From Nocardioidaceae bacterium (lineage in GTDB: Bacteria; Actinomycetota; Actinomycetes; Propionibacteriales; Nocardioidaceae), in the NCBI GenBank assembly GCA_013697585.1, contig JACCWP010000089.1, forward strand, positions 1-45,078: 45,078 nt of DNA, given 5' to 3'. Each line of letters starts with the position of its first letter. Positions within the stretch are counted from its first letter, which is position 1. Shown here in pieces: positions 38,512-42,808 of this stretch. Position numbers and translations under genes: made by a program. The notes under the pieces are model-generated. The model made no database searches, had not been told where the DNA came from, and saw only the letters and a list, made by a program, of their open reading frames with translations.

Positions 38512-41073
38512 CTACGCCTCGGGGACGAGCAGCAGCACATCCTCGCCCGTGGCGTCGACCGCCTCTGCGCTGAACGGCCAGGGCACCGTGTCGCCCGCGG
38601 CCCACCGCTCGGTCTGGTCGTCGTAGTGGTCGGAGAAGGCGTGCCCGGACGCGCCACCCACGACGATCCAGCGAGCGGCACCGAGGTCGTCGAGAGGCAC
38701 GACCATCCGCATCGACGCGACGGCGGTTGCGGCAAACCCCTCGTCGGCCGACCAGGAGGAGGCGTCGACCGCCCCGCTGCCGCCGCTCAACGGATAGGGA
38801 CCACGGTTGAACAACGCCTCCACCGCAGCGACCCCCGACTCGCCGAGCGTCTGGTTGACCAGCGTGAGGTGGTGGATCGCCCCCCAGGTCCAGTCGTCAG
38901 GGTCCTGTGCCTGCAGCCGGGTCAGGTCGTCGCGGGCCTGCTCCATTGCCGCGACGAGCACGTCGTCGCGGTCCTCGCGTACACCGTCGGTGGACACGTC
39001 GTCCCACCACTTCGAGCCCGGCTCGTCCAGCAGCAGCCGCACCACCTCGCACCACCGCTCGTCGCCCTGCGGCCAGGCCGCCTTCGGCAGCTGGTCGGTG
39101 AACGTGAGCAACAACAGGTTTCGCCAGACCACGTTGAAGTACGCCGCCGCGCCGGAGTCGGCGGGTTGGGTCCCGTCCCAGCCGACCAGCAGCTCCTGCC
39201 CCTGCCGGTGGTACGGGGTGCTGAGCGGTTGCCTGAGCAGTGCCGGCACGAGAGCCTCGGCCATCGGGTGCAGGGAGTCGGTCTGCAACGCGGCGGAGGC
39301 CTCGACCGTCCAGTCGTCGCGCGTGGCAAGCAGGTCGACGATGCGTTGCGACCGATAGCCGTACGCGGTGTCCGCACCGAGTTCGAAGCGATACCCGTCG
39401 GGGTCGACCACGGCCTGGTTCGCGGTGACGATGACTCCGCCCGGCGGGTCGAGCGTCCACGGCAGCTGACGGAACGGCACGCTGCCGCTCCACCCGTACC
39501 GCGCGTCCCAGCCCGGCACCGGCCACCTGCCGTCACCGAGCCGTCGGACGGGGATGGTGCCAGGCGCCTGGTAACCGATGTGGCCGTCGACGTCGGCGTA
39601 GACGAGGTTCTGTGCCGGCACCTCGAAGAGCCGGGCGGCGGCACGGAAGTCGTCGAACGACCGGGACAGGTCGAGACCGAACACCGCATCCATGGTTCGG
39701 CCGGGCTCGAGCGCGGTCCACTGCAACGCCACGGCGTAGTCCTCGCCGCCGGCCGGACGCGCCACGGGCGCCTCGTCGGCGACTCGAGCGGCATCGTCGT
39801 CGATGTCCGACAGGAGCGGCCCGTGCCGAGTGGCACGGACGGTCCGGGTCACCGGTTCGTCCTCGCCCGCGACCTCGAACTCCTCCTCGCGCACGCTCAT
39901 CTCGACCCAGCGACCGTCGAACAGATACCTGTTGCCGTCGACCTGCTCGACGTAGAGGTCGGCCACGTCCGCGTACATGGACGTGAGTCCCCACGCGACC
40001 CGGTCGTTGTGACCGACCACGACACCCGGCAGGCCGGAGAACGTCGTCCCCGCGACATCGAACGGGCACTCGGCGGTCAGCTCGCGGCAGTGCAGACCCA
40101 TCTGCTCCCAGACGCCGGGCATGGCAGGCGCGAGGTGGGGATCATTGGCCAGGATCGGGGCACCGCTGGCGGTGTGCTCACCAGAGATGACCCAGGAGTT
40201 GCTGCCGATCCCGTCGCCGGTGCCCAGCAGGGTCGGCACCTGTGCGTCGACCTTGGCTGCCGCGGCCAGGTCGGTGCCGAGCCCGCCCGCGATCGCGGCT
40301 CGCACGGCGGGCGCCAGCGGCGGTCGTGCGGCTGCTGACGAGGGCTCTGCGGAAGGGTCGAAGCGCCCGGCCACAACGGCGCCCGGCTCGAGAATCGGCC
40401 GGTGCTCCTCGGTGGGGTAGTCGGGGTAGAGCTCGCCGATCGCCCCCTGTCCCACCGAGGCCGCGGCCAGCGTTCGGTCGATCTCGTCGCTCACGTTGCT
40501 GCGCAGGTCCCACGCCAGTGCCTTGAGCCAGGCCAACGAGTCGGTGGGCGACCAGGGCTCCGGGACGTAGTCGGGGCCGGTGACGCCCAGGACGGCGTAC
40601 TCCAAGGACAGCTCGGCAGGGGCTCGGTCCTCGACGTAGGCGTTGACGCCGTCGGCATAGGCCTGCAGGTATGTCCGGGAGGACGAGTCCAGCAACGCAA
40701 GCTCCTGCTCGGCCACCTCGTACCACCCGAGCGACCGTACGTAGACGTCGGTGTCGAGACCGCTCGAGCCCACGAGCTCGGCCAACCGGCCCTGGGTCAC
40801 GTGCCGGCGGAAGTCCATCTCGAAGAACCGGTCCTGGGCATGAACGAAGCCCTGGGTGAAGAACAGGTCCTCGGCTGTGTCGGCATAGATCTGCGGGATC
40901 CCGTAGTCGTCGCGGACGACCTCGGCAGCACGCTCCAGTCCGGCGACGACCAGCTCGCCGTCGACCTGCGGGAACGACCGGCGCGCGGTCCACCCGCCCC
41001 AGGCCACGGCCGCGACGAGCAGCACCGCGATGCCGCCGGCGACCCACACGGTGATCCTGCCGGCGCGACCCAC
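38512..41073 (-). CDS. Membrane-anchored penicillin acylase family Ntn-hydrolase
   Basis: A self-processing hydrolase of amide bonds such as beta-lactams or acyl-homoserine lactones. An N-terminal basic stretch and single helix (ITVWVAGGIAVLLVAAVAW) anchor it outside the cell. The alpha chain contains DDYGIPQIYADTAEDLFFTQGFVHAQDRFFEM. The autoprocessing site is GIGSNSWVISGEHTASG, with the catalytic Ser (Ser291 from this start) after Gly. The beta chain includes ANDPHLAPAMPGVWEQ, LPGVVVGHNDRVAWGLTSM and IVTANQAVVDPDGYRFE. The start is GTG 41073 or 48 nt earlier. The substrate is unknown. Convergent with the cyclo-ligase gene. Confidence 0.93.
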   Translation of the reverse strand: MGRAGRITVWVAGGIAVLLVAAVAWGGWTARRSFPQVDGELVVAGLERAAEVVRDDYGIPQIYADTAEDLFFTQGFVHAQDRFFEMDFRRHVTQGRLAELVGSSGLDTDVYVRSLGWYEVAEQELALLDSSSRTYLQAYADGVNAYVEDRAPAELSLEYAVLGVTGPDYVPEPWSPTDSLAWLKALAWDLRSNVSDEIDRTLAAASVGQGAIGELYPDYPTEEHRPILEPGAVVAGRFDPSAEPSSAAARPPLAPAVRAAIAGGLGTDLAAAAKVDAQVPTLLGTGDGIGSNSWVISGEHTASGAPILANDPHLAPAMPGVWEQMGLHCRELTAECPFDVAGTTFSGLPGVVVGHNDRVAWGLTSMYADVADLYVEQVDGNRYLFDGRWVEMSVREEEFEVAGEDEPVTRTVRATRHGPLLSDIDDDAARVADEAPVARPAGGEDYAVALQWTALEPGRTMDAVFGLDLSRSFDDFRAAARLFEVPAQNLVYADVDGHIGYQAPGTIPVRRLGDGRWPVPGWDARYGWSGSVPFRQLPWTLDPPGGVIVTANQAVVDPDGYRFELGADTAYGYRSQRIVDLLATRDDWTVEASAALQTDSLHPMAEALVPALLRQPLSTPYHRQGQELLVGWDGTQPADSGAAAYFNVVWRNLLLLTFTDQLPKAAWPQGDERWCEVVRLLLDEPGSKWWDDVSTDGVREDRDDVLVAAMEQARDDLTRLQAQDPDDWTWGAIHHLTLVNQTLGESGVAAVEALFNRGPYPLSGGSGAVDASSWSADEGFAATAVASMRMVVPLDDLGAARWIVVGGASGHAFSDHYDDQTERWAAGDTVPWPFSAEAVDATGEDVLLLVPEA

Positions 41074-41123
41074 GCCCCGATTCTGCCTGTCCGGTCTCGT
41101 GGCACCGCTCGCAAGTGGCACAC

Positions 41124-41150
41124 TTGGCAGTCGACGGGTGAGAGTGCCAG
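41124..41150 (+). promoter_or_regulatory. CIRCE-like HrcA operator before the FmdB/Ruc gene
   Basis: TTGGCAGTC-N9-GAGTGCCAG matches the CIRCE layout TTAGCACTC-N9-GAGTGCTAA with exactly 9 nt between arms. The arms pair at 7 of 9 positions. It ends 14 nt before the start codon, where it would affect the promoter or leader. Confidence 0.7.
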
Positions 41151-41164
41151 ACGAGGAGACGGTC

Positions 41165-41596
41165 GTGCCGACCTACCAGTACGCCTGCACCAGCTGCGCG
41201 CGCCCGCACGAGGTGCAGCAGAGCTTCACCGACGCCACCCTCACCCAGTGCCCGCACTGCGAGGGCCGGCTGCGCAAGGTCTTCTCGGCGGTCGGCGTCG
41301 TGTTCAAGGGCTCGGGCTTCTATCGCAACGACAGTCGCGCCGCCGCCGAGACCACGAACGGCGCGGCCGCCGAGTCGGGATCCAGCTCGGATTCGGGCTC
41401 GGGGTCGGATTCGGGCTCGGGGTCGGACCCGGGCACCGGCTCAGGCTCAGGCTCAGGCTCGGACAAGCCGTCCAAGGAACCTGCGGCCGCGGGCAGTGCT
41501 GAGAAGTCGGGCACCGGGTCGAAGCGTTCCTCCGAAGGCTCGACTAGCGCGAAGCCGTCCCGGTCGACCAGCTCGTCGGCCGGCTCGGCCGCCTGA
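41165..41596 (+). CDS. FmdB-type zinc ribbon protein, Ruc-like
   Basis: 143 aa from GTG 41165 (VPTYQYACTSCARPHEVQQ), with GAGGAG 6 nt upstream. The N-terminal ~55 residues form an FmdB zinc ribbon with CTSC and CPHC ligand pairs. The remaining ~85 residues are a Ser/Gly/Ala/Lys-rich disordered tail. This is the architecture of Rv0991c (Ruc), a redox-activated chaperone of M. tuberculosis that works with DnaK, encoded at the same place in the gene order (recalled). The CIRCE-like operator just upstream fits heat-shock co-regulation. Confidence 0.85.
   Translation: MPTYQYACTSCARPHEVQQSFTDATLTQCPHCEGRLRKVFSAVGVVFKGSGFYRNDSRAAAETTNGAAAESGSSSDSGSGSDSGSGSDPGTGSGSGSGSDKPSKEPAAAGSAEKSGTGSKRSSEGSTSAKPSRSTSSSAGSAA
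41389..41463. repeat. Low-complexity repeat in the Ser/Gly-rich tail
   Basis: Repeats built on TCGGATTCGGGCTCGGGG and later GGCTCAGGCTCAGG encode SDSGSGSDSGSG and GSGSGSG in the FmdB tail. It is prone to slippage. Confidence 0.6.
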
Positions 41597-41688: not shown

Positions 41689-42312
41689 GTGGAAGCCCGA
41701 TGGCGCGCCCGGCGCCGTGACCTGTCCCGCACCATCGTGCGTTGGCGACGGCCGCTCGCCGCGGTTGCGGGCGGCCTCGCCGTGCTGAGCGGTCTGGCGG
41801 CCGTCCAACCCCACCCGCTCCCGGTCGAGCAGGTCACGGTGGCAGGCCGCGACCTGCCGAGCGGCACCAGGATCAGCCATGCCGACGTCACGACCGTCGC
41901 GTTGCCGCCCGCGGCGGTTCCTGACGGCAGCTATTCGCCCGGAGACGCACCCATCGGGCGGTTGGTCGCAGCACCGGTCCGACGCGGGGAGCCGCTGACC
42001 GATGCGGGGATCGTCGGACCTGGGCTGGCGGCTGAGCTGGCGGCCGGCGAGGTGCTCACCAGCATCGAGGTGCCGGTGGCAACCGCATGGCTCGTACGGC
42101 CGGGAGACGTTGTCGAGGTGGTCGCAGGCAACCCGCGGGGGGCCGATGCAGCCGACGTGGTCGCGACATCGGCCACCGTCGTCGCAACCCCCCGCGACGC
42201 CGACGGCCCTGACGACCGAGCAGTGGTGCTGGCACTCGACGGCGCGGCGGCGCTCCACGTCGCCCAGGCGGCGCTGGGGTCGCCGCTCGCCCTGCTCGTC
42301 CGCGGGCCATGA
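41689..42312 (+). CDS. SAF-domain protein (RcpC/CpaB-like N-terminal region)
   Basis: 207 aa. An N-terminal basic segment and one helix (PLAAVAGGLAVLSGLAAVQP) are followed by a SAF domain (VEQVTVAGRDLPSGTRISHADVTTVALPPAAVPDG) and a second beta-rich domain (VEVVAGNPRGADAADVVATSATVVATP). RcpC/CpaB proteins of this kind help assemble Flp/Tad pili. No other tad gene is in the window, and a free-standing SAF protein is common in Actinobacteria upstream of mscL, so the pilus role is doubtful. It is probably anchored in the membrane with the SAF domain outside. Confidence 0.85.
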   Translation: MEARWRARRRDLSRTIVRWRRPLAAVAGGLAVLSGLAAVQPHPLPVEQVTVAGRDLPSGTRISHADVTTVALPPAAVPDGSYSPGDAPIGRLVAAPVRRGEPLTDAGIVGPGLAAELAAGEVLTSIEVPVATAWLVRPGDVVEVVAGNPRGADAADVVATSATVVATPRDADGPDDRAVVLALDGAAALHVAQAALGSPLALLVRGP

Positions 42313-42391
42313 GCGCGCCGGTCGGCCAACCGCCCCGGGCCTCACTACGGTGTGCCCGGCGCACGCGGCGCTACCCGTTCCTGGAGGGGAC

Positions 42392-42808
42392 ATGCTCAAG
42401 GGCTTCAAGGAGTTCCTGCTTCGCGGCAACGTCATCGACCTCGCGGTCGCGGTGGTCATCGGCACCGCGTTCGTCGCTCTCGTCACGGCGTTCACGACGT
42501 ACTTGATCGATCCGATCATCGCGGCCGCCGGTGGTGACGACGCGGTGCAGGGACTGGGGTTCGAGATCCGCGACGGCAACGCGGCGACCTTCGTCGACGT
42601 CGGCGCCATCATCACCGCGATCATCACGTTCGTCCTGGTCGCGGCGGTGGTCTACGTCGTGTTCGTCGTTGCGATGAAGCGGCTGACGGCGCTGGTTGCC
42701 AACGCCCCCGAGCCGGCCGCGGCACCCCCAGACGTGCAGCTGCTCACCGAGATCCGTGACCTGCTGCGGCAGCGGCAAGGAGGGGGCGTCCCGCCGCCGA
42801 CGGCCTGA
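42392..42808 (+). CDS. mscL: Large-conductance mechanosensitive channel
   Basis: Pentameric channel that opens under membrane tension and protects cells from hypo-osmotic shock. The 138-aa protein begins MLKGFKEFLLRGNVIDLAVAVVIGTAF (N-terminal amphipathic helix and pore helix TM1). A periplasmic loop follows, then TM2 AIITFVLVAAVVYVVFVVAMK and a cytoplasmic helix ending LLTEIRDLLRQRQGG. GGAGGGG precedes the ATG at 42392, and a TACGGT -10 candidate lies at 42346-42351, giving a leader of about 35 nt. The longer track ORF is spurious upstream. Confidence 0.96.
   Translation: MLKGFKEFLLRGNVIDLAVAVVIGTAFVALVTAFTTYLIDPIIAAAGGDDAVQGLGFEIRDGNAATFVDVGAIITAIITFVLVAAVVYVVFVVAMKRLTALVANAPEPAAAPPDVQLLTEIRDLLRQRQGGGVPPPTA

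Follow-up and report, generated by a model that had tools for sequence, protein, structure and literature searches.

A predicted HrcA operator before the gene for a putative Ruc-type redox chaperone, conserved across most Actinomycetes

An inverted repeat just upstream of an FmdB-type zinc-ribbon gene in a Nocardioidaceae bacterium is best explained as an operator for the heat-shock repressor HrcA. On this reading, to which we give a probability of about 0.92, the repeat lies across the -10 region and start site of the gene and keeps it repressed until unfolded protein removes HrcA, and the product is a redox chaperone of the type described as Ruc in Mycobacterium tuberculosis. The window analysed here is the whole stretch of 45,078 nucleotides in which the repeat was noticed, one contig of a 2.94 Mb assembly. 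The site, its conservation, its genomic company, the hrcA gene and the cysteine pattern of the product were all obtained from sequence; HrcA binding, heat induction, the position of the transcription start and the chaperone activity of the window Ruc are predictions built upon them.

The CIRCE-type dyad and the genes around it

The features of the window that matter to the argument are as follows.

38512-41121, minus strand: divergent penicillin-amidase-family gene (PF01804)
41119-41124, plus strand: putative -10 hexamer CACACT (xAxxxT), whose final T is also the first T of the dyad's left arm
41124-41150, plus strand: CIRCE-type dyad, predicted HrcA operator, TTGGCAGTC-GACGGGTGA-GAGTGCCAG, its left arm in the ruc-typical GCAGTC form
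41153-41158, plus strand: Shine-Dalgarno-like sequence GAGGAG
41165-41596, plus strand: ruc orthologue with a GTG start, encoding a 143-aa FmdB zinc ribbon with a Ser/Gly/Ala-rich tail
41689-42312, plus strand: SAF/CpaB-like gene, 92 nt 3' of ruc
42386-42808, plus strand: mscL (PF01741, E 1e-32)

The dyad does have the CIRCE geometry that the earlier note on this DNA had claimed for it, two 9-nt arms separated by a 9-nt spacer, and the distance of 14 nt given there between the repeat and the GTG at 41165 is also correct. Within the dyad, 17 of 18 arm positions match the degenerate actinobacterial CIRCE element YTRGCACTC-N9-GAGTGCYAR, and the two arms pair with each other at 7 of 9 positions, positions 1 and 7 of the arm being mismatched. 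The classical low-GC consensus, TTAGCACTC-N9-GAGTGCTAA, gives no match at three or fewer mismatches, the window dyad agreeing with it at only 14 of 18 positions; it fails because high-GC actinobacterial sites use YTRGCACTC. In all likelihood the dyad is bound by HrcA, though the departure from a perfect arm at position 7 may lower its affinity. Two further copies resembling the half-site TGGCAC, at 41100 and 41116, are found 5' of the dyad (window 41100-41129), and Nocardia loci (e.g. L349) have a comparable duplicated TTGGCACTG immediately upstream of theirs.

The gene that follows had been described as encoding an FmdB zinc ribbon with a disordered, Ser-rich tail, and this description stands. 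Its product matches two models of the family (TIGR02605, E 1e-17; PF09723, E 5e-13) and contains a CX2C-N17-CX2C zinc ribbon (C8, C11, C29, C32), followed by a tail of 89 residues composed only of A, G, S, P, E, K, R, D, T and N, which would, by composition only, be hydrophilic and disordered. This tail is longer than the tails of 7-61 residues described for Ruc homologues and is encoded in part by a near-tandem Ser-Gly/Asp repeat region (41395-41465). A PDB sequence search with the window Ruc returned no FmdB structure, its matches covering the low-complexity tail. Downstream, a simple scan found no terminator-like site between ruc and the SAF/CpaB-like gene, and the two are possibly co-transcribed.

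HrcA and the other CIRCE-type sites in the source genome

Two checks proposed in the earlier note, the presence of an hrcA gene and a comparison with the CIRCE sites of the genome's own groES and groEL, were both borne out. HrcA is encoded in the source genome (C232:12122-12784, E 1e-57), and a genome-wide palindromic search for CIRCE returned exactly seven sites, six of them before heat-shock genes and the seventh before ruc in the window. The six belong to hrcA (one site, on C232), groES (two, on C235), groEL (two, on C173) and hsp20 (one, on C158); that the C232 site directly precedes hrcA is judged from how far it lies from the match to the HrcA domain. Like the actinobacterial CIRCE elements of groES, groEL and hrcA in general, these sites of the same genome share geometry and arm letters with the window dyad. 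A reversed-pattern control, with one mismatch allowed, yielded three sites per strand in the source genome, and therefore the identity of the genes behind the sites matters more than the number of sites. The hsp20 site (C158:12014-12040, L005) is a perfect CIRCE-type site 5' of an Hsp20/alpha-crystallin gene, and by this evidence hsp20 appears to belong to the HrcA regulon of the source organism.

Conservation before ruc orthologues

Every one of the 149 genomes surveyed from the order has a ruc orthologue, as do 292 of the 297 surveyed from the class. The regions upstream of 186 of these genes (up to 300 nt each), drawn from 100 genera and 42 families of Actinomycetes, were compared with the actinobacterial element. 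A dyad scoring 16-18 out of 18 is present in 142 of the 186 and occurs in 73 of the 100 genera and 36 of the 42 families, while the best score reached in three rounds of shuffling the same regions was 14 of 18. Conservation of the dyad before orthologues, another of the checks suggested beforehand, is thus plain, and the association between ruc and a predicted HrcA operator is conserved across most Actinomycetes. Of 40 genomes from other classes of the phylum, six have the dyad upstream of ruc.

The 142 ruc sites are invariant at arm positions 4, 5, 6, 8, 19, 20, 22, 23, 24 and 26 and freely variable at spacer positions 11-18. Their distance to the start codon ranges from 9 to 147 nt, with a median of 26. 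Nocardioides zhouii and N. daejeonensis carry TTGGCAGTC-N9-GAGTGCCAG before ruc, and dyads also occur at ruc in Kitasatospora, Nocardia, Rhodococcus, Gordonia, Pseudonocardia, Saccharothrix and many mycobacteria.

The operator is absent from the remaining 44 upstream regions (300 nt). Six sampled families are entirely without it, as are some genera of the families labelled f1, f2, f28, f31 and f32. Loss of HrcA as the cause is rejected: each of the 80 genomes checked for it encodes the protein, including those with no operator, so it is the link that is absent there and not the regulator. The link between HrcA and ruc is accordingly not obligatory, some lineages holding both genes without the operator. 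Replacement by the HAIR element of HspR was also considered for the operator-less lineages, and no sign of one was seen before ruc, the best match (10 of 14) being no better than elsewhere. As a separate observation, in four genomes of family f25 (G169, G231, G306 and G401), small-genome relatives whose HrcA frames are about 245 aa long, only a C-terminal stretch of the family, positions 124-215, is matched, hinting that HrcA has diverged or been shortened in these relatives.

Predicted promoters at ruc

The -10 hexamer assigned in the window, CACACT, is a putative one and follows a pattern common to the orthologous sites. At 112 of the 142 sites the last base of an xAxxxT hexamer coincides with, or adjoins, the first T of the left arm, against a background of 5.6%. 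In most lineages, then, the left arm of the ruc dyad abuts or overlaps a predicted -10 element of sigma-A-like type. Mycobacteria, Nocardia, Rhodococcus, Kitasatospora and Streptomyces-like genomes instead have GGAAT-N18-GTT, a promoter motif of the SigH/SigR type, whose GTT touches or overlaps the left arm. Motifs of this type occur in 27 of the 142 operator-bearing and 7 of the 44 operator-less regions (shuffle means 1.0 and 0.13, respectively), giving a predicted SigH/SigR-type promoter before ruc in 34 of the 186 sampled genomes. No GGAAT/C-N17-19-GTT promoter was found before the window ruc, and a simple scan of the window gave no consensus sigma-70 promoter. With either type of promoter, HrcA would sit on the transcription start.

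A SigR-like GGAAY-N16-20-GTT motif stands before CIRCE-less ruc genes of f1g5 and of several f2 genera (operator-less regions L010, L045, L193, L194, L199, L200 and L201), suggesting that control of ruc there may have switched from heat to thiol stress.

The direction of the promoter bears on a different assignment of the dyad, namely that it is a CIRCE element chiefly serving the divergent penicillin-amidase gene, with ruc as a bystander. In its longest reading frame that gene starts at position 41121, leaving 3 nt between it and the dyad, and it could share the operator. However, the -10-like hexamer faces ruc, and it is ruc that the dyad accompanies through 36 families; a bystander role for ruc is, in our judgement, very improbable.

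Proposed regulation and its relation to known systems

An operator serving ruc itself, the preferred reading, would work by occlusion. HrcA bound to the dyad would span the promoter -10 and the transcription start, blocking RNA polymerase and keeping expression low. On heat or unfolded-protein stress, unfolded protein would titrate or remove the repressor, and ruc would be derepressed together with hrcA, groES, groEL and hsp20. The window Ruc is expected to be zinc-bound and inactive at first and, once its four cysteines are oxidised, to become a client-holding chaperone in the manner of its M. tuberculosis counterpart.

A relationship between HrcA and ruc is not new in kind, having been established in M. 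tuberculosis (PMC7448276). There HrcA directly represses groES, groEL1, groEL2 and ruc, and SigH activates ruc (PMC7448276, PMC8223512; the SigH effect also in PMC4803200); at ruc the sites for the two regulators are described as overlapping (PMC7448276). Both heat and mutation of hrcA raise the level of Ruc strongly (PMC7448276; PMC8223512). The oxidised protein, but not the reduced one, prevents aggregation of luciferase, and the disordered tail is required (PMC7448276). The window gene is orthologous to this gene (Rv0991c), with cysteines 8, 11, 29 and 32 bearing the numbers of those mutated in M. tuberculosis Ruc, and its predicted operator resembles the M. tuberculosis one (PMC7448276) in lying 5' of the start codon and overlapping the promoter, in the window a putative one. 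The sites themselves differ: the mycobacterial ruc operators sampled read CTAGCACTT-N9-GAGTGCTAA behind a SigH-type GGGAAT-N18-GTT, whereas the window site, TTGGCAGTC-N9-GAGTGCCAG, has no preceding GGAAT-N18-GTT.

The earlier note had seen in the dyad a direct HrcA link outside mycobacteria and support for a chaperone function of the family. The first claim holds as a predicted operator reaching across 36 of 42 families, though the M. tuberculosis work deprives it of novelty in kind. Beyond mycobacteria, the relationship was not reported in the open-access literature searched, which yielded no pairing of HrcA with FmdB, COG2331 or zinc ribbon and none of CIRCE with Rv0991c; a prior computational prediction, for example in a regulon database such as RegPrecise, may exist. 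Chaperone gene neighbourhoods in other phyla have been described, in a paper whose main text makes no mention of CIRCE or Streptomyces (PMC7448276). The second claim stands in part: the conserved, shared operator supports co-regulation with chaperones but does not alone establish chaperone activity, and a chaperone function for the window Ruc is carried over from M. tuberculosis by orthology and co-regulation. A parallel with Hsp33, in which zinc release upon cysteine oxidation activates the chaperone, has been drawn for Ruc (PMC7448276). A different activation mechanism is nevertheless expected, Ruc having a single small zinc-binding region, with more than half of the protein disordered (PMC7448276).

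Many bacterial phyla encode FmdB-type zinc ribbons, often with no annotation beyond that of a putative regulator. A predicted operator in 36 of 42 families would tie the FmdB/Ruc family to protein quality control beyond the one species in which this has been shown, and its conservation makes Streptomyces, Nocardioides and their relatives convenient laboratory hosts for work on the chaperone model.

The GCAGTC arm of ruc operators

Left-arm position 7, at which the window dyad departs from a perfect arm, sets many ruc operators apart from those of groES. G is found there (GCAGTC) in 83 of the 142 ruc sites, as in the window, and C in 58; by genus, 37 have mostly G7 and 34 mostly C7, with the qualification that related genomes make these counts non-independent. 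Whereas ruc has one site, groES usually has two in tandem with an intact left arm, position 7 being C in 119 of 120 sites from 69 genomes and the G-type deviation base occurring in one. Twenty-two genomes have G7 at ruc together with a groES site that could be read, and in these groES keeps C7 (GCACTC), so the change is in the operator and the specificity of HrcA is unchanged; altered HrcA specificity is accordingly rejected as the source of the GCAGTC arm. Nor do the counts support G7 as the purine of a start site coupled to the sigma-A-like -10, 39 of the 58 C7 sites having the same hexamer.

An exact search for the G7 form through 148 genomes returned 66 sites, and the reversed control none. 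In a hand tally, made from coordinates and from reading the sequences, 52 of the 66 stand immediately 5' of ruc, one of these on the mirrored strand, three are mirror images of groES sites, eight lie elsewhere and three could not be assigned.

The same position helps to distinguish a DNA operator from an RNA structure, a hairpin or attenuator in the ruc 5' leader. An inverted repeat close to the transcript start could fold, and a role of CIRCE at the level of mRNA has been suggested previously. Most ruc sites, however, have a pair-breaking base in the left arm, and the compensating change (G7 with C21) is seen in none of the 142. This is the reverse of the pattern that selection for a hairpin would leave. 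An arm-breaking change that is never compensated points to an operator bound by protein and away from a hairpin in the RNA, and we give the latter very little credence. A chance resemblance near a gene, expected 0.12 times per window when up to three mismatches are allowed, is refuted by the conservation before 142 orthologues and the absence of any reversed-pattern match over 148 genomes.

With the dyad taken as an HrcA operator, it is conceivable, if on balance doubtful, that the promoter-side GCAGTC arm has been selected in many Actinomycetes: it would lower the affinity for HrcA, and for one and the same fall in HrcA the response of ruc would then precede or exceed that of groESL. Were this true, single operator bases would set the order of release within the HrcA regulon. 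The ruc-specific arm variants also provide a natural operator series with which to study target ranking by HrcA.

The two tandem CIRCE sites of groES, present in most Actinomycetes sampled (C235:2505-2577, L004, in the source genome; loci L229-L298), show a variation of their own. The upstream site is usually perfect, and the gene-proximal site usually has one altered base, most often in the right arm (GGGTGC, GTGTGC, GATTGC or GACTGC).
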